A stretch of DNA of 64,000 bases from Aporhodopirellula aestuarii (GTDB taxonomy: Bacteria; Planctomycetota; Planctomycetia; Pirellulales; Pirellulaceae). The notes below the pieces were generated by a model. That model did no database searches. It saw only the letters and a list, made by a program, of their open reading frames with translations, and was not told where the DNA came from. The position numbers were made by a program, and so were the translations under genes. Below, piece after piece: positions 6,612-22,665 of this stretch (its first letter is position 1; every line of letters begins with the position of its first letter). Where the stretch lies: the NCBI RefSeq assembly GCF_023701485.1, contig NZ_JAMQBK010000078.1, forward strand, positions 121,788 to 185,787. The letters are read 5' to 3'.

Positions 6612-9600
6612 ATGTTGTTGGATCGCATTGAAATCGACAGTCACGGCCCGTTGAACCGAGTCGAACTGGGTCCCCTCTCTCACCACCTAAACGTGCTCGT
6701 CGGTGCTCCAGGGTCTGGAAAGACCGCCATCGGCCGCTTTATCCGTGATTCGCTGATCGACCGCGAATACCCAAGAGGAATGCTCAGTGGTTCCGCAGGC
6801 CGCGTCGTGTGGGTCGACAACAACGGCTGGATCCATTGCCGCCGCGAACAAGACGGCACGCCTGGCGGTCGCCGCAGCGTTGAATTTGAACCACGCAGCG
6901 AAACGGCAGGCATCTGGGACGGATACACCGAAGGTTGGTTCGACGGTCCGCACGCCAACGCCATTCACCGTGACGCCTACGGCTCCGAGATCGCATCGCA
7001 AACCGCCTCCGCCTATCGATCTTCGCTCGCATCGCGAACCCTCGGCGGAATCCGAATCCCCGAGTCGATCGTCGATGGCGTGATGGTCGACACGACCGTA
7101 AGCAGCGTCTCGCGAGTCGTCGCCTCGTGCGTTTCCGCAGGTCTCGATCGCGAAGATCTTGCCCGCCTGCCGTTCGAAAACGAAACCGCCCAATTCGCTC
7201 AGCAAGGATTCACCGACGCTCCCGTCCGTGATCGCGACGACCGTCAACGCCGCGCCCTCCGCAGCGAACTCGCCGACGTCGAAGCGGAACTCAGCAAACT
7301 CAGTGCCCTCGCCGATCGCAATCCAACCGAGGAAGCCGCGTCGCCCCTGACCAATGTCGACTACGATCGCCTCACCCGCGAACGTGACCAATGCGTTCGT
7401 CGCCGCGATGAACTGATCGCCCGGCGTGAAGAATCCATCCGTATCCGCGGTAGTCGCTACCGCGCCCCGGTCGCAAACTACACGAGTCCTTGGGGACCAA
7501 TCGACTCGCGGTACGCTTCCACGAACTGGGATGCAAACACCGCCCAACTACGTGCTCTCCATCAGCGTGCGGACTCACTGCGTTCACGCGCCGCGGAACT
7601 CCAACGCTGGATCGCCGAACTCGATTCGCAGTCCCACGCCCGCTCGGCTGTCGATGTGCCGTTTGCCGGTTACGACGTGCAACCACGATACAGTGCTGAC
7701 TACACGCTGCCACGTCACTGGCAATCCACCTCAACGGAACACCTGCAAAATAAGATCCGCCAAGCCGATCGTGAAATCGTCTCGCTCCGCCGCGTGCTCG
7801 CTGACGTCCGCGGACTGCGTGAGATGATCGGCACAACGATGCGGTCAACCACCCCGTACACCGAATCATACGATTGGCTCGACGACAGTTGGATGCAGGG
7901 CCGACGCTACGACCACTTCGTCCGTGCGATGGACCATTACCGCAGCGATCGACCGTGGGTCGACTTCTACGACCGGGCCTACCAACCACTACGACCGGTC
8001 GACGACCTTGCGATGCGAATCGAAGCCACCACTCGTCACCTCGATTGGTTGTTGTCGCGATTTGACGTTCCCGGATCGACAGTCGACTCCCGCCCATCGG
8101 ACCCTTACACGTGGCTCCATGAAAGCGAACGAGCTGGATTCATTGAAGAATCACTCCGCCGCGTCCGCAACCAACTCCGCCAACGAGACTTCTTCAACAC
8201 CGCGCACCTGGACGCGATCGTTGTGGAATTGACCCGTTCGCTCGATCATCTGATGTTGCAGCGTCGCCGTGTCGTGGAATCGCTCGCCGCACAGCACACC
8301 AATTCGAATCGTGATTTCACCGGCCTTTCGGGTCATCAGCTCGACTGGGTCAACGAACGCCGTTCCGCCAACGAAGAGCTTGCGAGCATCGAGAGTGAAC
8401 TTCGCCGCGTGCTCGACCAAACCGCGACGCTTCGCCATTCGCAACGTTACCTTCCGATCGTCGACCGCGCTTATCCGATCGGCACGGGCATCTACGACAG
8501 CCCGATCGGATCAACCTACGGAACCTACACCGGTCTGGATCAGGGCCAGTCCGAATCGCTGCGTGCGGAAGTTCGCTCGATGGATGCCGAAATCGCACGT
8601 TTCAACCAACGCCTCAGTGACCTCGACCTTCGAATCCGCGCGCTGCGTGCACGTCCGGCTGTCGCTCCAACGCCTTATGGCGACATCGCTCGCCTTCGCC
8701 GTCGCCGCGACGAACTGATCAGCCTGCTGAACCGACATCGCCCTGTCGCGCGCCGTGAATCATCACTCTGCGAGCTCGCGAGCCGATGGTTAATTCGACT
8801 TTCGGGCGGACGTCATCGGGTCGTGACTTGGTCCGTTTCCCCGACTGCGGTCGATCCCTACACAACACTCGAAACCGCGTCGGCGGATCGCGACAGCGCA
8901 CCCAACGGGCGCATCGAAGGTCGCCGCATTGGCGTCACCATCGATAACGTTGACGAACGCAACGTTCCCGCCGCCACCCGCGCAATTGCCTGCTTAGCCG
9001 TTCGCATGGCCGCCGGTGAATTGCTTGGACGGATGGGTCACGCCATCCCGCTCGTTCTCGAAACACACCGCGAACTATTCACCGCTGGCGAGCCGCAAAC
9101 CGCAGCTACAGACGGCTACGTGCCCGCGAGAGAAGCGGACGCGTATTCGCACTGGACTCGCGAAGGACTCTGCGGTGATTCGATCGCATCGGCGTTTGCA
9201 GACTACGCTGCGGCAGGTCGCCAAGTACTCGTGTTGACCGAGCACGCCCCACTCGCCGATGTGTTGCGTCGATCCGGTGCCCGTTTCTTCCAACTGCATA
9301 CGCAGCGAATCGTCCACCCACACCGACCGCTTTGGCGCAACGGTGAACGAAACGATCGCTACACCGGCCCTCATACGATCAACGTCGACGGACTCCCCGC
9401 CTCCAATGGCCACGAAACAATGGACTGGGCGGATGCCGGTTCGATCAACCGTGAATTTGATCACGCCTGGCGTGAAAGCGCCGGACTGCGAGACGAGGCA
9501 TCGTATTGTGCCACCGCAACGGACGCCCCGGGCGCTGGTGCGGCACACCGTGACGGCTACTACTACGCCGACAAAAGCTCAACGTATCCGGTCGCATCGA

Positions 9601-11249
9601 ACGTCAACGAAGTTTGCAGCGGCAACGCTGGCCAAATGGTTTCTCAAAGCCTCACCGCCCGGCACAACACTCCGGCAGATACGAACGACGTGCCATTTTT
9701 CCTCACGGTCGACAGCCCCATCGATGCCGCCCCTTCGATCGACGCCGTCGCCGCACAACGACTGCGTCGGATCGGCATTTCACACATCACTCACCTGATG
9801 AACCAAGACAGCAACCGTCTCGCCGACACGCTCGGCCTAGCCGGTGTCGATGCCAAGACGGTTCGTCGTTGGCAAGCCGAATGCCGGTTGATGTGCCGTG
9901 TCCCACAACTGCGTGGTTTTGATGCCCGCGTCCTCGTCGGGTGCGGAATCACCGACCCGGCTCAACTCGCCGCCATCCACCCGACCGATCTGCTCGAACG
10001 CGTCAAGACATTCCTGGCGACCGAACGAGGTCAACGCATTCTGTTGTCCGGCACGAGCTACGAGTTGTCACGCATCACGAGCTGGATCGCATCGGCCAAT
10101 CAAAGCGTTCACACCCACACCCGGGCTCGCACCGTCGAAGGCCGCCGAGTCCGCACCCGCGTCATCCGTGAAGACGGCGACGACACCATTCAAACAGCGT
10201 CACGACACAAAACGACGCCGCGCACCCGCTACGTCGAGAACGACGACGTCTACTTGACCGACGATGACTTCGACCAAGAACGATACGAAGTCGAAGTTGA
10301 ACGTCGTGCCGATCGTATCGTCGATGACCTCGACGAACTCGCCCGCGACTATGACGGCGGACGAGACCGAGATGCACACGCCAGCGGCGACAGCCGAAAT
10401 TCAGGAACCGATTCGTCCTCACGATCAAGCCGAACTTCGCGTGGAAATCGGTCGAGTGACAACGGTTCATCGAGTCGCTCATCGAGCCATTCCTCCGGCA
10501 CATACTCGTCTGATCGCGAAAGTAATCGCGGCGAACGCAACTCCCGACGACGACGCGAGCGATCAAGCGAATCTGACCGCAGCCGATCGGCTCGCGGCGA
10601 ACGTGAGAGTCGCCGCACTCGCCGAAGCGATTCGGACCATCGCGGCTCCAACCGTTCGGGCATTCACACCGTCGCCTCGGACACCACTCGCACAGACCGG
10701 GACTCGTCTTCGCGAAATGGTTCGTACGATCGAGAGTATCGTGAGCGAACCACAAACAGCGAACGGCAAACCACACGTTCGAGCGAACGCAACGAATCCA
10801 GTGAACGCGTTCTCAAGTTCTATCTTGAGCGGGCCAGTGATGTGGTGGACGCCCCATCGATCGGTCCTCGCATGGCAGAACGATTGAACAAGATCGGCAT
10901 CGAGACGGTCGATGACTTGCTCAACGCCGATCCGGCCGAAGTTGCCGCCGGACTCAAAAATCGTCGTATCGACGAGTCGACAGTGCTGGAATGGCAACAA
11001 CAAGCGACGCTGGTTTGCCGGGTTCCAATGATGCGAGGCCATGACGCTCAATTCCTCGTCGCCGCAGGCGTCACCACCCCAGAGGAACTCGCTGATTGCG
11101 ATCCAGTTTCTCTTTTCGCCACCGTCGAAGCCATCGCCAACTCAAACGAAGGCAAGCGGATCGTTCGTGGTGGCAAAGCACCTGACCTCGAAGAGGTTAC
11201 TGAATGGATCGAATTCGCTGCGGACCACCGCCCACTCAAAGCGGCCTAA
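6612..11249 (+). CDS. SMC/AAA-like ATPase with two DUF4332 modules and an Arg/Ser-rich linker
   Basis: A 1545-residue protein of unestablished function. The N-terminus has a P-loop GAPGSGKT (31-38) as in SMC/RecF/AAA_23-type ATPases. Long, charged helical regions follow (about 200-700) that look coiled-coil but are unusually rich in Arg, Tyr and Trp. An ABC-signature-like LSGGR is at 730-734 and a Walker-B-like hydrophobic strand ending in Glu817 (PLVLE) follows. Two related C-terminal modules (about 1035-1165 and 1405-1545) match the DUF4332 pattern, a helix-hairpin-helix-like fold with repeated (V/I)CRVPxxRGxDAxxLVxxG segments. Between them, about residues 1210-1400 are dominated by Ser, Arg, Asp and Glu with many RS/SR pairs. 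It stands alone, convergent with the next gene. A DNA-linked role is an inference from the HhH-like and SMC-like parts. Confidence 0.8.
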   Translation: MLLDRIEIDSHGPLNRVELGPLSHHLNVLVGAPGSGKTAIGRFIRDSLIDREYPRGMLSGSAGRVVWVDNNGWIHCRREQDGTPGGRRSVEFEPRSETAGIWDGYTEGWFDGPHANAIHRDAYGSEIASQTASAYRSSLASRTLGGIRIPESIVDGVMVDTTVSSVSRVVASCVSAGLDREDLARLPFENETAQFAQQGFTDAPVRDRDDRQRRALRSELADVEAELSKLSALADRNPTEEAASPLTNVDYDRLTRERDQCVRRRDELIARREESIRIRGSRYRAPVANYTSPWGPIDSRYASTNWDANTAQLRALHQRADSLRSRAAELQRWIAELDSQSHARSAVDVPFAGYDVQPRYSADYTLPRHWQSTSTEHLQNKIRQADREIVSLRRVLADVRGLREMIGTTMRSTTPYTESYDWLDDSWMQGRRYDHFVRAMDHYRSDRPWVDFYDRAYQPLRPVDDLAMRIEATTRHLDWLLSRFDVPGSTVDSRPSDPYTWLHESERAGFIEESLRRVRNQLRQRDFFNTAHLDAIVVELTRSLDHLMLQRRRVVESLAAQHTNSNRDFTGLSGHQLDWVNERRSANEELASIESELRRVLDQTATLRHSQRYLPIVDRAYPIGTGIYDSPIGSTYGTYTGLDQGQSESLRAEVRSMDAEIARFNQRLSDLDLRIRALRARPAVAPTPYGDIARLRRRRDELISLLNRHRPVARRESSLCELASRWLIRLSGGRHRVVTWSVSPTAVDPYTTLETASADRDSAPNGRIEGRRIGVTIDNVDERNVPAATRAIACLAVRMAAGELLGRMGHAIPLVLETHRELFTAGEPQTAATDGYVPAREADAYSHWTREGLCGDSIASAFADYAAAGRQVLVLTEHAPLADVLRRSGARFFQLHTQRIVHPHRPLWRNGERNDRYTGPHTINVDGLPASNGHETMDWADAGSINREFDHAWRESAGLRDEASYCATATDAPGAGAAHRDGYYYADKSSTYPVASNVNEVCSGNAGQMVSQSLTARHNTPADTNDVPFFLTVDSPIDAAPSIDAVAAQRLRRIGISHITHLMNQDSNRLADTLGLAGVDAKTVRRWQAECRLMCRVPQLRGFDARVLVGCGITDPAQLAAIHPTDLLERVKTFLATERGQRILLSGTSYELSRITSWIASANQSVHTHTRARTVEGRRVRTRVIREDGDDTIQTASRHKTTPRTRYVENDDVYLTDDDFDQERYEVEVERRADRIVDDLDELARDYDGGRDRDAHASGDSRNSGTDSSSRSSRTSRGNRSSDNGSSSRSSSHSSGTYSSDRESNRGERNSRRRRERSSESDRSRSARGERESRRTRRSDSDHRGSNRSGIHTVASDTTRTDRDSSSRNGSYDREYRERTTNSERQTTRSSERNESSERVLKFYLERASDVVDAPSIGPRMAERLNKIGIETVDDLLNADPAEVAAGLKNRRIDESTVLEWQQQATLVCRVPMMRGHDAQFLVAAGVTTPEELADCDPVSLFATVEAIANSNEGKRIVRGGKAPDLEEVTEWIEFAADHRPLKAA

Positions 11250-11398: not shown

Positions 11399-12919
11399 CT
11401 ACGCCAGCAGTCGATCTTTGATCCGGTGAACCGGTTCGGCCCAATTACCAAACTCGGATTGGCGACTGATCACGGTGTTGGGGTACCACGCCGTCGACAC
11501 GCCACTCATCAGCCATCGCCAATCCGGCACGCGGCCAAGCAATAAGTGCGTTCGCACGCCGAGGGCTCCGGCTAAGTGGGCGATGGCGGTGTCCGTGGTG
11601 ACGATCGCGTCGAGGTTGCACAGGACCGCGGCGGTATCCATGAATTGCCCCGTCGATTGGTCGAGCGTTTCTGGCAACCGGATGATCGAGTCTGAGAAAT
11701 CGACTTGATCCAATTGCTCGATGCCATGGCCGAACTGCATATTGACGACATCAAACTCACCCGACTCGACAATCGGCCTGAGCACTTCCAACTCCACGCT
11801 GCGATAAACGTCGGCGTGGTGTTCACGGTTCCCCTGCCAATTGATCCCGATGATCGGCTTGGCAAGCGCATCGCCCGTTTGCGACGCTGATGCACGCGCC
11901 GAGGTCAGCCAATCGGCCCACTTGCCAATCGCCGTATCCGAAACATTGAGATAGCCCGGCACACGCGATGGATTCGAACTCGCGACCTGAGCGGCATCAC
12001 CTTGGAACAACGACTCGCCGAAGTACATGGTTTGATCGCGCTGATACAAACCGTCGAGTATTTCCAGAAACGATCCCTGGTAGTCTGCCTGAGTCATGCT
12101 GCCATGCAACATCGACATTCCCGCCGCCAAGACATCGCCTCCACGATCCGCCGGGACCACCTCCGCGACGAATTCGTCGATGCCCGGGGCTGAGGAAAAC
12201 AGCGGAATGAGCTTTTCACTGCAAGTCACGATCACGGTCGCGCCGCCCGCTTTCAATGCCGCCGCGACGCGGATGAAATGGATTGCGTCGCCGAGGCCCT
12301 GCTCGGGATAGATCACCACGACTCGGTTTTCGAGCGACTGGCCGGTCCACACGGGAACATGAATCCCGGTCGCTCGCCATGCCTCGGTGACGGCGGACCG
12401 TGCCACACCAGGCATTCGCCATCGCCATCGAAACTCTTCAAACCCACGGCGGTAATCGCCCATCAGCAACGAGATCACGCCGAGGTTACGGTGCAGCTCC
12501 GCGTTATTCGGATCGATCTCCAAACCACGCGCATACCACTGCAGCCCACGTTCGACATCGCCATTCCACACCCACAGCGTGCCGCGATTTTTCAGCGCCG
12601 AAAGATATCCCGGCTGCAGGTCGAGAGCTTTCGCGAAGCACTGCTCGGCTTCGTCAATTTCACCCCGCATCCTCAACGAGTTGCCGAGGTTGTTCCACGC
12701 GATGGGGAATTGGCTTTTGATCTCCAAGGCTCGCCGGTACGACTCGATCGAACCGGCGAAATCCCTCAGATCAAATTGGGCGATCCCAAGATAAACCCAC
12801 GCTTCGGCGGAGTTTGGAATTTGAGCTAAAACGCCGCGATACAACTGCATCGCGGCGGGAACATTGCCACTCTGGTGAACCTGCCAGCCCTGCTGGAGAA
12901 CTTCGCCAATCGATGGCAT
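11399..12919 (-). CDS. TPR-repeat protein with glycosyltransferase (family 9/heptosyltransferase-like) domain
   Basis: Residues 1-170 or so are tandem tetratricopeptide repeats (recognisable AWVYLGIAQFDLRDFAGSIESYRRALEI and similar units). The C-terminal half resembles ADP-heptose:LPS heptosyltransferase-like domains, with a VIYPEQGLGDAIHFIR nucleotide-sugar segment and the VTTDTAIAHLAGALG signature, followed by WRWL. Such proteins are thought to transfer sugars to proteins or surface glycans, but the substrate here is unknown. Its ATG overlaps the stop codon of the upstream sigma factor gene by one base (TAATG), implying translational coupling. The family call is good; the biological role is open. 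Confidence 0.88.
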   Translation of the reverse strand: MPSIGEVLQQGWQVHQSGNVPAAMQLYRGVLAQIPNSAEAWVYLGIAQFDLRDFAGSIESYRRALEIKSQFPIAWNNLGNSLRMRGEIDEAEQCFAKALDLQPGYLSALKNRGTLWVWNGDVERGLQWYARGLEIDPNNAELHRNLGVISLLMGDYRRGFEEFRWRWRMPGVARSAVTEAWRATGIHVPVWTGQSLENRVVVIYPEQGLGDAIHFIRVAAALKAGGATVIVTCSEKLIPLFSSAPGIDEFVAEVVPADRGGDVLAAGMSMLHGSMTQADYQGSFLEILDGLYQRDQTMYFGESLFQGDAAQVASSNPSRVPGYLNVSDTAIGKWADWLTSARASASQTGDALAKPIIGINWQGNREHHADVYRSVELEVLRPIVESGEFDVVNMQFGHGIEQLDQVDFSDSIIRLPETLDQSTGQFMDTAAVLCNLDAIVTTDTAIAHLAGALGVRTHLLLGRVPDWRWLMSGVSTAWYPNTVISRQSEFGNWAEPVHRIKDRLLA

Positions 12920-14478
12920 TAATCCAAGAACCCAACCAAATCTTGGCTACGGCTAGGCTGCTGAAGCTTACGAACCGCCTTGGCTTCGATTTGCCGGATC
13001 CGCTCGCGGGTGACCTTGAAGATATGGCCAACTTCCTCGAGCGTGTAGCTGTAACCGTCACCCAAACCGTAACGCAGTTTAATGATCTCACGCTCACGAT
13101 AGGACAACGACTTCAGCACACCGGTGATCCGCTGGCGAAGCATTTCCTGAGTCGCACCGATTTGCGGGCTCTCAGCGGTTCCATCGGGGAGCAAGTCACC
13201 GAATTGGCTGTCTTCACTGTTACCGACCGGGCGATCCAACGAGATCGGGAATCGACTCATCGTGAGCACACGACGGGCTTCTTCCACCGTCACGTCGGCA
13301 CAACGGGCGGTCTCTTCGATCGAAGGCTCGCGGCCGAGTTCTTGCAACAACGCACGAGCGACGTTGCGAACGCGGCTCATCGTTTCAACCATGTGAACCG
13401 GAATCCGAATCGTCCGGCTTTGATCGGCAACCGCACGGGTGATCGCCTGACGAATCCACCAAGTCGCATAGGTGCAGAACTTGAATCCACGGCGATATTC
13501 GAACTTGTCAACGGCCCGCATCAAACCTGCGTTGCCTTCTTGGATCAAATCGAGGAACGACAAACCACGGTTGCGATACTTTTTGGCGATCGAAACGACG
13601 AGTCGCAAGTTACCTTCGCTCAGTTCACGTTTGGCTTGTTGGTATTCGCTGTACACACGGCCGAGCATTTGGCATCGGTTACGCAGCGACGTCGGTGTTT
13701 CTTGGCACGCGGTCAAGATCTGACGACGTTCATGCAGCAGCTGATCGCGAACTTCGCGGCCATGCTTGGTACGTTTTTGATCTGCGATCAGGGCGTCGAT
13801 CTCGTCGAGACGGCGTGAAAACTTTTCGAGCATCGCGATTCGAGTCTCGATCCGCTGAGTCCGCAGACCGAGTTCCTCGATCAAACGAACGGCGCGACGA
13901 CGACGACGTGCCAGAGCCCGCCACGCTTCGGCACGACGACGTGCAGGCGTGCTCTTGCTCATCGCAACCTTCCAGTCGTGCCGGTTACGGCTCAGGAGGG
14001 TTTGCAGGGTACGAAGGTTGTGTGGCAAACGGCCGACGATCTGGTCTTTCTCAAGACGATCGGTCACGCTGACCTGGACGGTGCGATCAAACGGCAACTG
14101 CCCGCGGTAGACTTTCTTGAGCGTCTTGTACGCTTCGACGAGAACGTAGTGGTTCTCGAGCAATTTCGTGCGGAAGCGTCGACGGGTCTCTTCGATCCGC
14201 TTTGCCAGTTCGATCTCTTCGCGGCGCGTCAGCAATGGGATCTCACCCATTTGCGTCAGGTACATGCGGACAGGATCGTCCGACCAGGTTTCCGATTCAT
14301 CGATCGCGATCAACTCATCGGGGCTCTCCAACTGCACCTGCCCGTCGCCAACGTCACTGACGTTAACGCCCGTGTCGTCCTCGTTGTCATCAACAGGAAG
14401 TTTACGGAAGCCACCTGAGACGACATCGGTGTTTGTTGCCGAAACATCGTCAAAATCATCCATTAACGGATCGAACAA
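12919..14478 (-). CDS. RNA polymerase sigma-70 factor, RpoD/SigA type
   Basis: A 519-residue sigma factor. Region 1.2 is at about 68-100 ([22 protein letters not shown]). Region 2 is at about 285-355, including [20 protein letters not shown] and [12 protein letters not shown] for -10 recognition and melting. Region 3 follows at about 362-440, and region 4 at about 445-508 with the helix-turn-helix [13 protein letters not shown] for -35 binding. The 190 residues between regions 1.2 and 2 form a basic, helical non-conserved region. The long acidic region 1.1 of classical RpoD is replaced by a short acidic N-terminus (1-60). It may be the housekeeping factor or a close group 2 relative; the window cannot decide, so no symbol is given. 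It is co-transcribed with the TPR-glycosyltransferase. Confidence 0.95.
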
Positions 14479-18744: not shown

Positions 18745-21700
18745 ATGCTCCCAGTGAAAGAGTTTCTTGGAACGAAACGATACGAACTCAGGGGCGTGAT
18801 CGGCCGCGGCGGAATGGGCGTCGTTTACCGAGCTTACGATCGTGAGCGAGGCGACTTTGTTGCCCTTAAGACGATTCGAGAAATCGATCCGTCATCGATC
18901 TACCATTTTAAAAATGAATTCCGCTCGCTCGCTGAGTTGGTGCACCCCAACCTGCTGCCGCTCTATGAACTGGAGTCTGACGGTGAGCATTGGTTCTTCA
19001 CCATGGAGCTGGCGGAAGACGCAATCGACTTCTACACGCACGTGCGCGCGATCAAGAGTTTGGCGTTTGGCATGACCGAACGCTACGACAGTGCCCCTCC
19101 AATCAACCACTCCGCCCCAACCGGCAGCGACAAATCCTCAGGCTCCAACGAAACTTTCCTGGATCCAATTACGTCTCCGGTTAGCCAGGACACGCAAGCG
19201 TGTCATGAAGATACGGACAGCGAATCGCGGGAGAGCTGTCCTCCGCGAACCACACCGTCCCCCCTACCCGATGAAATCTACGACCGCATTCGAGATGCGA
19301 TGCGACAACTCGTCGATGGTGTGTGTGCCCTACATGATGCGGGAAATCTGCACCGCGACTTGAAACCGGCAAATGTATTCGTCCGCGCAAATGGGCGTGT
19401 CGTCTTGTTAGACTTCGGATTGGTCGCGGAGTTGGCCAGCATTCCCCGATCCGATCCGAACGATGAAAAAGCCCCCGAGTCATCGAACGATCCGCAGCCC
19501 CTCTCCCATCAGTCACTCAGTGGCCGGATTACGGGAACGGCCAAATACATGGCGCCCGAGCAAGCGGCGGCGGGACGGTTGACGACGAGCAGCGATTGGT
19601 ACGCCGTCGGAGTGATGTTGTTCCAAGCCATCACGGGCCAACTTCCGTTCGACGGCTCGCGAAACGAAGTGCTTTACAACAAGCAAAACCTCGACGCCCC
19701 CGCGCCGTCGGATCTGATGCCGGGCGTCCCCGACGATCTCAACAGCCTCTGCATCGATCTCTTGCGACGAGACCCTAACGATCGTCCGACGGGGCCCGAG
19801 ATTGCAGCCCGACTGTCGCCCGACAAGCCCCCGGCAGAGGCGTCGATTGAAAACTCGCACCCTGTTGAACTCCCCTTTGTCGGACGCGTCGAGCACCTTG
19901 CCAAACTGCGAGGGGCGTTTGAACAAACGCGACAAGGTTCCACTGCGGTGGTCCGTGTTCACGGACGTTCCGGAGCGGGCAAATCGGCCCTCGTCCAACA
20001 CTTCTTGGACAAGGTACAGTTCGATCCGGACACCGTCGTGCTATCTGGTCGGTGTTATGAACAAGAATCGGTGCCGTATAAAGCGGTCGATAACCTGATC
20101 GACGCATTGGCTCGCTATCTGATGCAATTGCCCGCCGCTGAAGTCAGGTCATGGTTACCCGATTCCATTGCCGCGTTGGCTCGCATCTTTCCTGTGCTGC
20201 AGCGAGTCGACTTAATCGCAGCGGCAGACCCTTCGGCCGCAAATGTGCCTGACCTTCGTGAACTGCGTCGGCGGGCCTTCCATGCACTGGCGCAATTACT
20301 TCGGGCAATCAGCAGTCAAAACAACCTCATCTTGTCGATCGATGATTTGCAATGGGGCGATGTCGACAGTGCGTACTTACTCGCGGAATTGCTGCAACCC
20401 GCCAACGCGCCGAGGATGTTGGTCGTTCTGAGTTACCGGAGCGAGTACATCGTCTCGAGCCCCTGCTTGATCGCGTTAGACGAACAGATCGGACCGACGT
20501 TGCAACAAACCGAATTGCCCGTCGCGGAGTTAACGAAAGACGAAACACGTGCGTTAGCGGAAGAACTGCTCAATCACGCATCGTCATCGAACCCTGATTC
20601 GATCGATTGGATCATCCGCGAGTCACAGGGCAGCCCTTTATTCGTTTACGAACTCGTTGGATACGTTGCCGGGGGCAGCAACCTCGGCAACGATTCACGT
20701 GAACTCAACCTCGACGATGTGCTCTGGAATCGCATCAAGGAATTGCCCGAAGCGTCCCGAAAATTGTTGGAAATCATTTCGGTAGCGGGACAACCCATTC
20801 CCGCCTGCGACGCACATGCTGCGGTCGGCTCGCGCACCCCGTTAATTGCATCCCTCCGCAACCTGCGCGGAGAACGTTTGATCCGCAGCACCGGACCACG
20901 TGTCATCGACCAAGTCGAAACCTTTCACGACCGGATCCGCGAAAGCGTTGTCTCGCATTTACCGAGCCCCGATCGTAAGAACTGCCACGCTTCGCTCGCC
21001 AAGACACTCAGGGAATCTCGCAGCGCAGACACGGAAACCATCGCCGTCCATCTCCACAAATCGGATCAGTACGAAGAAGCGGCTAAGTTTTACGCATCCG
21101 CGGCGGACGAATCCGCCCGCGCACTTGCGTTCGACCGAGCAGCCAACCTGTACCGACTGTCATTGACCGCCCGCGCACCGAACGGTGAGGCAGCCTGTTC
21201 GCTGTACACCAAATACGGAGACACGCTCGCCAACGCCGGGCGCCCGCATCCCTCCGCGTCGCAGTACCTCATCGCTGCGGAGTTATCCGATGGAGCGACA
21301 CGGATCGACCTGGAACGAAAAGCCGCTTACCAACTTTGTGCCGGCGGCCACCTTGACCAAGGCCGTGAAGTGCTCGGTCGCGTCCTCGGACGCGTCGGAA
21401 TGCAGCTGCCCAACTCACAGAAAAAGGCTCTCGCGCTGTTGCTGTGGCGACGTTTGAAACTCCGCGTGCGTGGCACACAATACAGCACCGAATCCGCGAT
21501 CACGGCCGATCAAAAAGACAAGATCAACGTCACTTGGTCAGCTTCCGCTGGAATGGGGACAAAGAACATTGTTGTGTCTCCCGCGTTCCAAACGCTGAAC
21601 CTGTTACTGTCTCTCAAAAGCGGTGACCAGTTCAGCATCGCTCGCGCGTTGTGCTGGGAAGCGGTCTACACGGCTCACGATGGTGTCGGTGCAATGCGTT

Positions 21701-22665
21701 ATTCACGCAAGCTGATTGACCAAGCCGCCGAAATTGCCGCCCAACTCGAGTTGCCCTACATCAACGCGATGGTCGAACTGGCCGAAGGAGCATGCGGTTT
21801 CTTAACCGGCCGATGGCATACCGGCAGCACCCGCTGCGACCGCGCCAGCAGCATCCTGACCGAACGCTGCACCGGCACCTCTTGGGAACTCGGCCAAGCC
21901 GCCACCTACATGCTATGGTGCATGTCATGGGAAGGTCGTTTCGGCGAAATGTCGCGTCGTTCGGCAACGATTCTCGAAGACGTGCGCGACCGCGGTGACT
22001 TAACCACCGCCGCGAATCTCAATTCGTACATGACGCCGTTATCCCATCTCACCGCAGGGGACGTCGACGCGGCTCGAGCGAGTTTGGCCGAATCACTCGC
22101 CCAGTGGTCTCGCAAGGAATACAACATTCAGAACATGACCGCATTGATGGGCGGCGCGTGCGTTCACCTCTACGCCGGCGAATACGCTCAGGCACACGAA
22201 CGGATGGTCAATGAATGGAACGACCTCAAACGCAGCCTGATCCTGCAAGCACAAGTTTGCGCGGTCGTGCTCCCTGAACTTCGCATCCGCAGTGCCCTGG
22301 GAAGCTACGTTCACCAAACCGAAGATCCGAAACTACTACGCGACGCGGAACTCTTTCTTCGTAAGATGAACCGCAAACGCGTCCCGTATGCCGCCGCCAT
22401 GTCAGCGCCGCTGTACGCGGCATTGAGCTATATCACAGGCGATCGATCGCGAGCGATCTCCCAACTACGCGAAGGGATCGAACTCCTTCAGGCCCAAGAC
22501 ATGAACCTGTTTGCCGCTGCCACGCGGTTCCGCTACGGGCAGCTACTTGGCCCGGGCAACGGCGGAGATCATCAGGAGGAAGCCGTGACTTGGATGCGAT
22601 CTGTCGGCGTCCAAGATCCGATCGCAATGATCACGGCTTACACCCCCGCGTTCCCGAAGTTCTAG
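18745..22665 (+). CDS. Serine/threonine protein kinase fused to STAND-like ATPase and TPR region
   Basis: A 1306-residue signalling protein. The kinase domain spans about 14-370: glycine loop GRGGMGVVYRA (20-30), Lys42 in VALK, catalytic HRDLKPANVF (His203, Asp205), DFGLV, and GTAKYMAPEQ. All catalytic residues are present, so it should be active. An insertion of about 70 Ser/Pro/Asp-rich residues lies between the small-lobe/alphaD region and the catalytic loop. A second P-loop GRSGAGKS (407-414) begins an AAA_16/STAND-type ATPase with SIDDLQWGD as its Walker B. The remaining 500 or so residues are helical, TPR-like. This is the kinase-ATPase-TPR arrangement known in planctomycetes and myxobacteria. 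No membrane helix is evident. It is followed in the same direction by the oxidoreductase fusion. Confidence 0.9.
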   Translation: MLPVKEFLGTKRYELRGVIGRGGMGVVYRAYDRERGDFVALKTIREIDPSSIYHFKNEFRSLAELVHPNLLPLYELESDGEHWFFTMELAEDAIDFYTHVRAIKSLAFGMTERYDSAPPINHSAPTGSDKSSGSNETFLDPITSPVSQDTQACHEDTDSESRESCPPRTTPSPLPDEIYDRIRDAMRQLVDGVCALHDAGNLHRDLKPANVFVRANGRVVLLDFGLVAELASIPRSDPNDEKAPESSNDPQPLSHQSLSGRITGTAKYMAPEQAAAGRLTTSSDWYAVGVMLFQAITGQLPFDGSRNEVLYNKQNLDAPAPSDLMPGVPDDLNSLCIDLLRRDPNDRPTGPEIAARLSPDKPPAEASIENSHPVELPFVGRVEHLAKLRGAFEQTRQGSTAVVRVHGRSGAGKSALVQHFLDKVQFDPDTVVLSGRCYEQESVPYKAVDNLIDALARYLMQLPAAEVRSWLPDSIAALARIFPVLQRVDLIAAADPSAANVPDLRELRRRAFHALAQLLRAISSQNNLILSIDDLQWGDVDSAYLLAELLQPANAPRMLVVLSYRSEYIVSSPCLIALDEQIGPTLQQTELPVAELTKDETRALAEELLNHASSSNPDSIDWIIRESQGSPLFVYELVGYVAGGSNLGNDSRELNLDDVLWNRIKELPEASRKLLEIISVAGQPIPACDAHAAVGSRTPLIASLRNLRGERLIRSTGPRVIDQVETFHDRIRESVVSHLPSPDRKNCHASLAKTLRESRSADTETIAVHLHKSDQYEEAAKFYASAADESARALAFDRAANLYRLSLTARAPNGEAACSLYTKYGDTLANAGRPHPSASQYLIAAELSDGATRIDLERKAAYQLCAGGHLDQGREVLGRVLGRVGMQLPNSQKKALALLLWRRLKLRVRGTQYSTESAITADQKDKINVTWSASAGMGTKNIVVSPAFQTLNLLLSLKSGDQFSIARALCWEAVYTAHDGVGAMRYSRKLIDQAAEIAAQLELPYINAMVELAEGACGFLTGRWHTGSTRCDRASSILTERCTGTSWELGQAATYMLWCMSWEGRFGEMSRRSATILEDVRDRGDLTTAANLNSYMTPLSHLTAGDVDAARASLAESLAQWSRKEYNIQNMTALMGGACVHLYAGEYAQAHERMVNEWNDLKRSLILQAQVCAVVLPELRIRSALGSYVHQTEDPKLLRDAELFLRKMNRKRVPYAAAMSAPLYAALSYITGDRSRAISQLREGIELLQAQDMNLFAAATRFRYGQLLGPGNGGDHQEEAVTWMRSVGVQDPIAMITAYTPAFPKF

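Follow-up and report, generated by a model that had tools for sequence, protein, structure and literature searches.

A YhaN-related protein with two DUF4332 modules and eroded ATP-cycling motifs in Aporhodopirellula aestuarii, a probable SMC-like scaffold

What does the 1545-aa protein do that is encoded at 6612..11249 (+) of the window, the whole 64,000-nucleotide stretch of Aporhodopirellula aestuarii DNA analysed here? SMC/Rad50-type proteins are thought to work through ATP cycling, and the original prediction had read this one as an SMC-like ATPase, conceivably an organiser of DNA or RNA, its two DUF4332 modules joined by an RS-rich linker. The open reading frame was confirmed, and the genome holds one full-length copy; two further proteins match with similarity confined to DUF4332. 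We argue that the protein is probably a paralogue of YhaN (SbcE, SMC/Rad50-like) that carries two C-terminal DUF4332 helix-hairpin-helix (HhH) modules, has lost its ATP-cycling motifs and serves as a scaffold.

A search for relatives returned five close loci (L004-L008); at L004 the tblastn match reaches residue 1252, yet the ORF is full length. Those relatives that carry a name belong to Rhodopirellula and Neorhodopirellula, both Pirellulaceae. With residues 1-200 as the query, 17 of the 60 genomes of the window's family match, its own included, and we took regions from the 16 others; those of L045 and L048 are truncated where their contigs stop. With PF14229 (DUF4332), 24 of 149 genomes of the phylum match, and so do four of 14 well-known control genomes, so DUF4332 is widespread. 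Ten loci (L049-L058) were taken from the 23 other PF14229-matching genomes. Four of them (L049-L052) encode a YhaN-like head with two DUF4332 modules and two (L053 and L054) a YhaN with a membrane hairpin, identified by eye, and one module; all six belong to a single other family (f2) within the class. The last four (L055-L058), from other Planctomycetota families, are hydrophobic membrane-protein-like frames of 460-788 aa with a C-terminal DUF4332 match.

Searches with the target alone (Pfam, NCBIfam, PADLOC, PDB) gave DUF4332/HhH matches and weak P-loop or coil matches. The PADLOC matches to GajA and PtuA (E 0.012 to 0.034) are confined to residues 1-58, and we do not count them as a sign of a defence role. 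AAA_27 (PF13514), the Pfam family of YhaN heads, does not match the target at E ≤ 1, and the target is not among the four AAA_27 places of its own genome. The family is over its cut-off in the DUF4332-bearing L042, L044, L049 and L053 and below it in L034, L038-L041, L046 and L051, and it is unspecific, with matches in 13 of 14 control genomes. AAA_23 is over its cut-off in L041, L044, L049, L051 and L053 and below it in the target, and at E ≤ 1 it matches three of six close members (best E 0.0034). An AlphaFold model of residues 1-1195, built from only six sequences, has a mean pLDDT of 43.9 and shows helices in the coil region.

The genome encodes a canonical YhaN elsewhere (L063:2054-6208 (-); AAA_27 at 52.9 bits, LSRGT, LVLDD and, by eye, a membrane hairpin), as well as an SMC (L064:1508-5185 (-), LSGGE). 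This YhaN also has a charged, R/D/K/N-rich coil insert and a long acidic, proline-rich C-terminal tail. Profile comparison with hhalign joins the target to YhaN in steps: the seven closest members align with ten less-decayed relatives at E 7e-101 over 1041 columns, and these ten align with a YhaN set including L053/L054 at E 9e-71, DUF4332 contributing to both scores. The N-lobe of the seven members (residues 1-100) matches YhaN at E 5.6e-7, and their C-lobe matches YhaN directly only weakly (probability 12%). Against the genome's SMC, all matches lie at the P-loop, with probabilities of 30% over 15 columns for seven members, 53% over 27 for 14 and 95% over 46 for the ten less-decayed relatives. 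This chain of comparisons shows the target's predicted head to be of YhaN-type descent, reached through intermediates, and an SMC-like ancestry, in line with the original proposal, is thereby supported indirectly. On this basis we divide the head, all features of the gene lying on the same (+) strand, into an SMC/YhaN-type N-lobe (residues 1-200; 6612..7211), recognised by hhalign against YhaN and by weak AAA_23 matches, an interrupted coiled-coil region (residues 201-712; 7212..8747), recognised by the helices of the low-confidence model and by its length in comparison, and a C-lobe (residues 713-925; 8748..9386), recognised by alignment with YhaN and the relatives.

ABC/SMC-type ATPases share a Walker A motif (GxxGxGK[ST]), an LSGG- or LSRG-like signature that precedes the Walker B helix, and a Walker B motif (hhhhD) followed by a catalytic acid. 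We compared these motifs in a joint alignment of 29 proteins that includes the genome's own YhaN. The P-loop GAPGSGKT (residues 31-38; 6702..6725) is present as predicted and conforms to the Walker A pattern; GK[ST] occurs in all 29 proteins, and the first Gly is missing in L036, L038 and L039. The string LSGGR (residues 730-734; 8799..8813), which had been taken for the ABC signature, proved to align with the pre-signature motif LTDGK of the genome's YhaN, about 50 residues before the signature site. At that site (residues 784-791; 8961..8984) the target reads NVPAATRA, as against LSRGTGEA in YhaN, and its Walker B site (IPLVLETH, residues 812-819; 9045..9068) has LVLET where YhaN (LPLVLDDV) has LVLDD. 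The H-loop equivalent, VLTEH (residues 874-878; 9231..9245), was placed by alignment, and its histidine is not conserved, varying within the target's clade. The ATPase half of the original prediction is hence doubtful, its P-loop standing and its signature and Walker B being degenerate.

The distribution of these changes is ordered. An LS[RS]GT signature is found in nine of the 29 proteins (YhaN, L044, L045 and L049-L054), and no row of the target's 16-row clade has LS.GT; L041, within it, retains LSG. The Walker B Asp is replaced in all 14 rows of a clade nested within these 16, by E-T in 13 and by E-I in one; L040 and L043, which belong to the 16, retain D-D. In a tree of 27 rows, calculated with the signature and Walker B columns excluded and rooted on YhaN (a long branch), L053 and L054, support is 100/99 for the 16-row clade and 96/95 for the nested 14-row clade. 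This nesting and its support imply that, within the target's clade, the signature was lost before Walker B changed. LS.GT is likewise absent from four rows beyond the clade, L042, L046, L047 and L048, of which L042 (LSDGG) and L046 (LSAAG) come near it, and Walker B reads I-S-G in L042 and N-D in L044/L045. The aligned sequences indicate that motif erosion also arose separately outside the target's clade.

Both C-terminal stretches exceed the Pfam cut-off for PF14229 (103.3 and 54.2 bits separately and 146.4 bits in total, cut-off 23.2), which confirms the two DUF4332 modules. A profile built in this analysis sets their bounds at residues 1028-1165 (module 1; 9693..10106) and 1402-1545 (module 2; 10815..11246), and module 1 has PSIDA at the position corresponding to PSIGP in module 2. 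Predicted from 12 sequences, module 2 is all-helical (pLDDT 91.7, pTM 0.86). Foldseek returned 244 matches for this model at E ≤ 10 (best E 0.25) and none at E ≤ 0.001; its high-probability partial matches are to HhH domains, those of Y-family polymerases and, at a probability of at least 0.9, the N-domains of RadA and RAD51C. All 33 profile matches at E ≤ 0.1 are DNA polymerase IV/Dbh (best E 9.5e-4), and together with the RadA and RAD51C partial matches they bear out the suggestion that DUF4332 is HhH-like. By this likeness the modules may bind DNA; the lack of a Foldseek match at E ≤ 0.001 and the PSIDA of module 1 count against it.

No other region of the protein is as well conserved as module 1, whose mean pairwise identity is 0.94, 0.82 and 0.70 in sets of 7, 12 and 16 members. 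The corresponding values are 0.75, 0.67 and 0.62 for module 2, which lies above the coil, C-lobe and linker each time, and 0.84, 0.70 and 0.57 for residues 1-112, which fall below module 2 only in the set of 16. In the seven Rhodopirellula-type members identity is 0.64 for residues 113-200, 0.63 for the C-lobe, 0.50 for the coil, 0.48 for the spacer and 0.47 for the linker. Among eight less-decayed two-module proteins the order is module 2 (0.44), residues 1-112 (0.35) and module 1 (0.31); since this set has diverged further, the strong constraint on module 1 is possibly, though not necessarily, peculiar to the decayed clade. Comparison across the family shows a predicted head that retained its P-loop and lost first its signature and then Walker B, and a module 1 conserved above all other regions.

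We propose that the protein most likely acts as an SMC-like scaffold that cycles ATP slowly or not at all. Its head may bind nucleotide with little or no turnover and would serve as a dimerising rod or scaffold, and the HhH modules would be its working ends, binding DNA (or RNA) or a partner bound to nucleic acid. The linker, rich in Ser, Arg, Asp and Glu, would be a disordered polyampholytic tether that evolves fast and allows module 2 to extend away from module 1, and the likely role would be the bridging or marking of DNA, at the nucleoid or at damage sites, instead of motor work. We count in favour of this scaffold that the genome has a separate canonical YhaN and SMC, and that L038 keeps head lobes and modules with merely 14 aa between the lobes. 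The L038 protein (L038:4721-7387 (-), 889 aa) has both head lobes and both modules and is without the coil and the S/R linker. Our confidence is lowered by the conservation of residues 1-112, which contain the P-loop and exceed module 2 in the sets of 7 and 12, as would fit a nucleotide site still in use, and by the motif decay outside the clade.

The linker between the modules (residues 1166-1401; 10107..10814) has 236 aa, with fractions of 0.19 Ser and 0.22 Arg (S+R 0.40), and is densest at about residues 1246-1399 (10347-10808), where S+R peaks at 0.59 per 100 aa. We sampled about 5% of the genome (464 kb, made up of the window and 400 kb taken from two contigs), and among 266 mechanically picked, non-overlapping ORFs of at least 150 aa this gene is the single one that reaches S+R of at least 0.50 over 100 aa. 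A genome-wide S/R richness as the cause is ruled out on this sample, and DNA tandem repeats, looked for as a source of the linker, were not found. The predicted Ser/Arg dominance is thus real, and the many RS/SR pairs that had been pointed out are what the composition gives: there are 19 in the whole linker as against 19.0 ± 3.6 after shuffling, and 18 as against 20.0 ± 3.6 in residues 1228-1400. Six of 24 relatives show an RS/SR excess at p<0.05; the pooled Stouffer z of 4.06 for the 16 linkers longer than 80 aa is overstated, the rows being related and composition varying along the linker. With 20% D+E and a net charge of +4 the linker is polyampholytic, unlike a basic RS domain.

Linker length ranges from 8 to 276 aa in the 24 complete proteins with two modules. 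Linker S+R is at least 0.40 in ten (nine in the 16-row clade, plus L042), 0.20-0.40 in 12, 0.14 in L038 and 0.12 in L039, as compared with 0.145-0.214 outside the linker of each protein. The Ser/Arg composition therefore recurs among homologues and is not a one-off, and it is lower in the rest. The same head and modules occur with a linker of 8 aa (L039), with the low S+R of L038 and with S/N/G-rich (L046) or G/N-rich (L037) linkers, and these homologues, of the kind that the original prediction had named as refuting it, weaken the RS-domain idea. In all three pairs tested the dense part of the linker has the highest dN of eight regions; against L004 it is 0.45, as compared with 0.05 for residues 1-200 and 0.01 for the first DUF4332 module. 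For this part dN stays below dS in the comparisons with L004 and L005, and dS is saturated in that with L007. Seven of the 24 linkers (L008, L034-L037, L041 and L042) contain a DVVR[MLI]-like motif, which is absent from that of the window protein; in 500 rounds of shuffling it was met in a mean of 0.1 and at most two linkers, with the pattern itself written post hoc. It is possibly a protein-binding motif. Linkers that carry it otherwise align poorly.

A reading of the linker that fits either view of the head is that its composition is the drift of a disordered, low-complexity tether in which the Ser/Arg bias provides only flexibility and solubility. We regard this as a serious, if tentative, possibility: the high dN, the variable length, the exchange of S/R for S/G/N or its absence and the chance level of RS/SR pairs in the target all favour it, whereas the recurrence of high S+R in ten linkers, a dN that stays below dS against L004 and L005 (dS being saturated in the third pair) and the DVVR[MLI]-like motif, with its post hoc pattern and its absence from the window protein, speak against it.

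The surroundings of the gene and its possible partners bear on a second alternative, that of a working YhaN/SbcE-type repair factor whose YhaO-like nuclease is encoded elsewhere and whose nucleotide site is altered but active. YhaN pairs with YhaO in an SbcCD-like complex, and the gene for a YhaO-like nuclease lies beside that of YhaN. To go by its title, a 2010 study by Krishnamurthy reportedly describes SbcE/YhaN as an SMC-like protein of double-strand-break repair in Bacillus subtilis. Among PMC9470157, PMC3896406, PMC9769723 and PMC4205851, two cite that study. An M50-peptidase gene lies upstream of the target at a distance of 436 nt, and a TPR gene is convergent to the target. Gene order around the target is kept only in L004 and L005, and an operon with the peptidase gene or a nuclease was rejected on this order, the gap and the orientation. 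The flanks of L006-L008 contain no window gene, of those tested, besides the target. Two genes nearby encode a sigma-70 family factor (12919-14478 (-)), whose counterpart in L004 is 98.8% identical, and a large protein (18745-22665 (+)) in which kinase and AAA_16 domains are combined.

The ORF upstream of the genome's canonical YhaN (L063:6136-7476 (-)) has FIHASDFHL near its start and looks YhaO-like by eye. A metallophosphoesterase motif scan was negative in all 32 sources (the first 30 kb of the window and 31 loci) and is weak, having missed an ORF (L053:2028-3443 (+)) that lies upstream of the YhaN with one module in L053 and scores 19.1 bits for Metallophos, below the cut-off of 21.5. The upstream ORFs of L049 (L049:6609-7703 (-)) and L051 (L051:6704-7855 (-)) share 25% identity (E 3e-23) and match nothing in Pfam at E 0.01; that of L049 is only faintly like that of L053 (22% over 82 aa, E 0.007). 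Since the L053 ORF is sub-threshold and the other two lack a Pfam match, decay may have touched the nuclease partner too, and to judge from these sequences all three are possible decayed nuclease partners. AAA_27 matches occur in all 14 relatives' genomes examined, one match being the relative itself in three of them; given its presence in 13 of 14 control genomes, AAA_27 is no proof of a YhaN in each relative's genome.

We consider the working repair factor rather unlikely. The YhaN lineage given by the profile chain agrees with it, as do the conservation of residues 1-112, the YhaO-like ORF adjoining the canonical YhaN and the Metallophos-like ORF of L053, and the E-T pair, which replaces D-D or D-E in all but one of the 14 rows, may be an altered but working Walker B. 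Against it stand the canonical YhaN already present in the genome, the lost signature and the lack of an adjacent nuclease gene, with the tested window genes absent from the L006-L008 flanks. Still less probable is a pseudo-ATPase SMC-like lineage whose HhH modules, one of them almost invariant, do the work on a kinase-tunable, S/R-rich tether, which would make it a bacterial counterpart of the SR-type regulated proteins that organise nucleic acids. Least credible of all is an active SMC-like ATPase organising DNA or RNA under the control of a phosphorylatable, condensate-forming RS domain, for which the intact P-loop and well-conserved N-terminus, the outlying and recurrent S/R composition, the RS/SR excess of six linkers, the Ser/Thr kinase-like gene at 18745-22665 and the listing in PMC4205851 of B. 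subtilis SbcE/YhaN among the interactors of the Ser/Thr kinase YabT can be cited, and against which the degenerate signature and Walker B, the chance-level RS/SR pairs of the target, the loss or other composition of the linker in relatives and its polyampholytic charge all count.

In the literature searched (DUF4332, RS domains in bacteria or Planctomycetes, and related topics) the target family was not found among the matches listed; DUF4332 is mentioned in one figure legend, and no work on RS domains in bacteria or Planctomycetes was found. The apparent stepwise loss of the signature and Walker B acids, under continued constraint on the P-loop and an HhH module, offers a natural test of a motor-less SMC-like body. 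The locus also illustrates that an LSGGR string does not by itself identify an ABC signature and that bacterial tethers can be rich in Ser and Arg without being RS domains.

Eukaryotic RS domains are rich in Ser and Arg and contain RS/SR repeats; the target linker shares the Ser and Arg richness and differs in having no RS/SR excess, 20% D+E and a composition not kept in all relatives. With the HhH domains of RadA, RAD51C and Y-family polymerases, DUF4332 (PF14229) shares its helix-hairpin-helix start, whereas there is no significant structural match and the alignments cover about half the module or are poorer-fitting wholes. The target resembles YhaN/SbcE in head architecture, in motif order and in having a coil between the lobes. 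Unlike it, the target has no LSRGT signature and no LVLDD Walker B, has a coil region of 516 aa (831 aa in the genome's own YhaN), bears two DUF4332 modules and has no nuclease gene found alongside. L049-L054 likewise combine a YhaN-type head with DUF4332 at the C-terminus, present twice in L049-L052 and once in L053/L054; in contrast to the target, LS[RS]GT and the Walker B Asp are intact in all six, and the linkers of L049-L052 are 62-108 aa long with S+R of 0.21-0.31.
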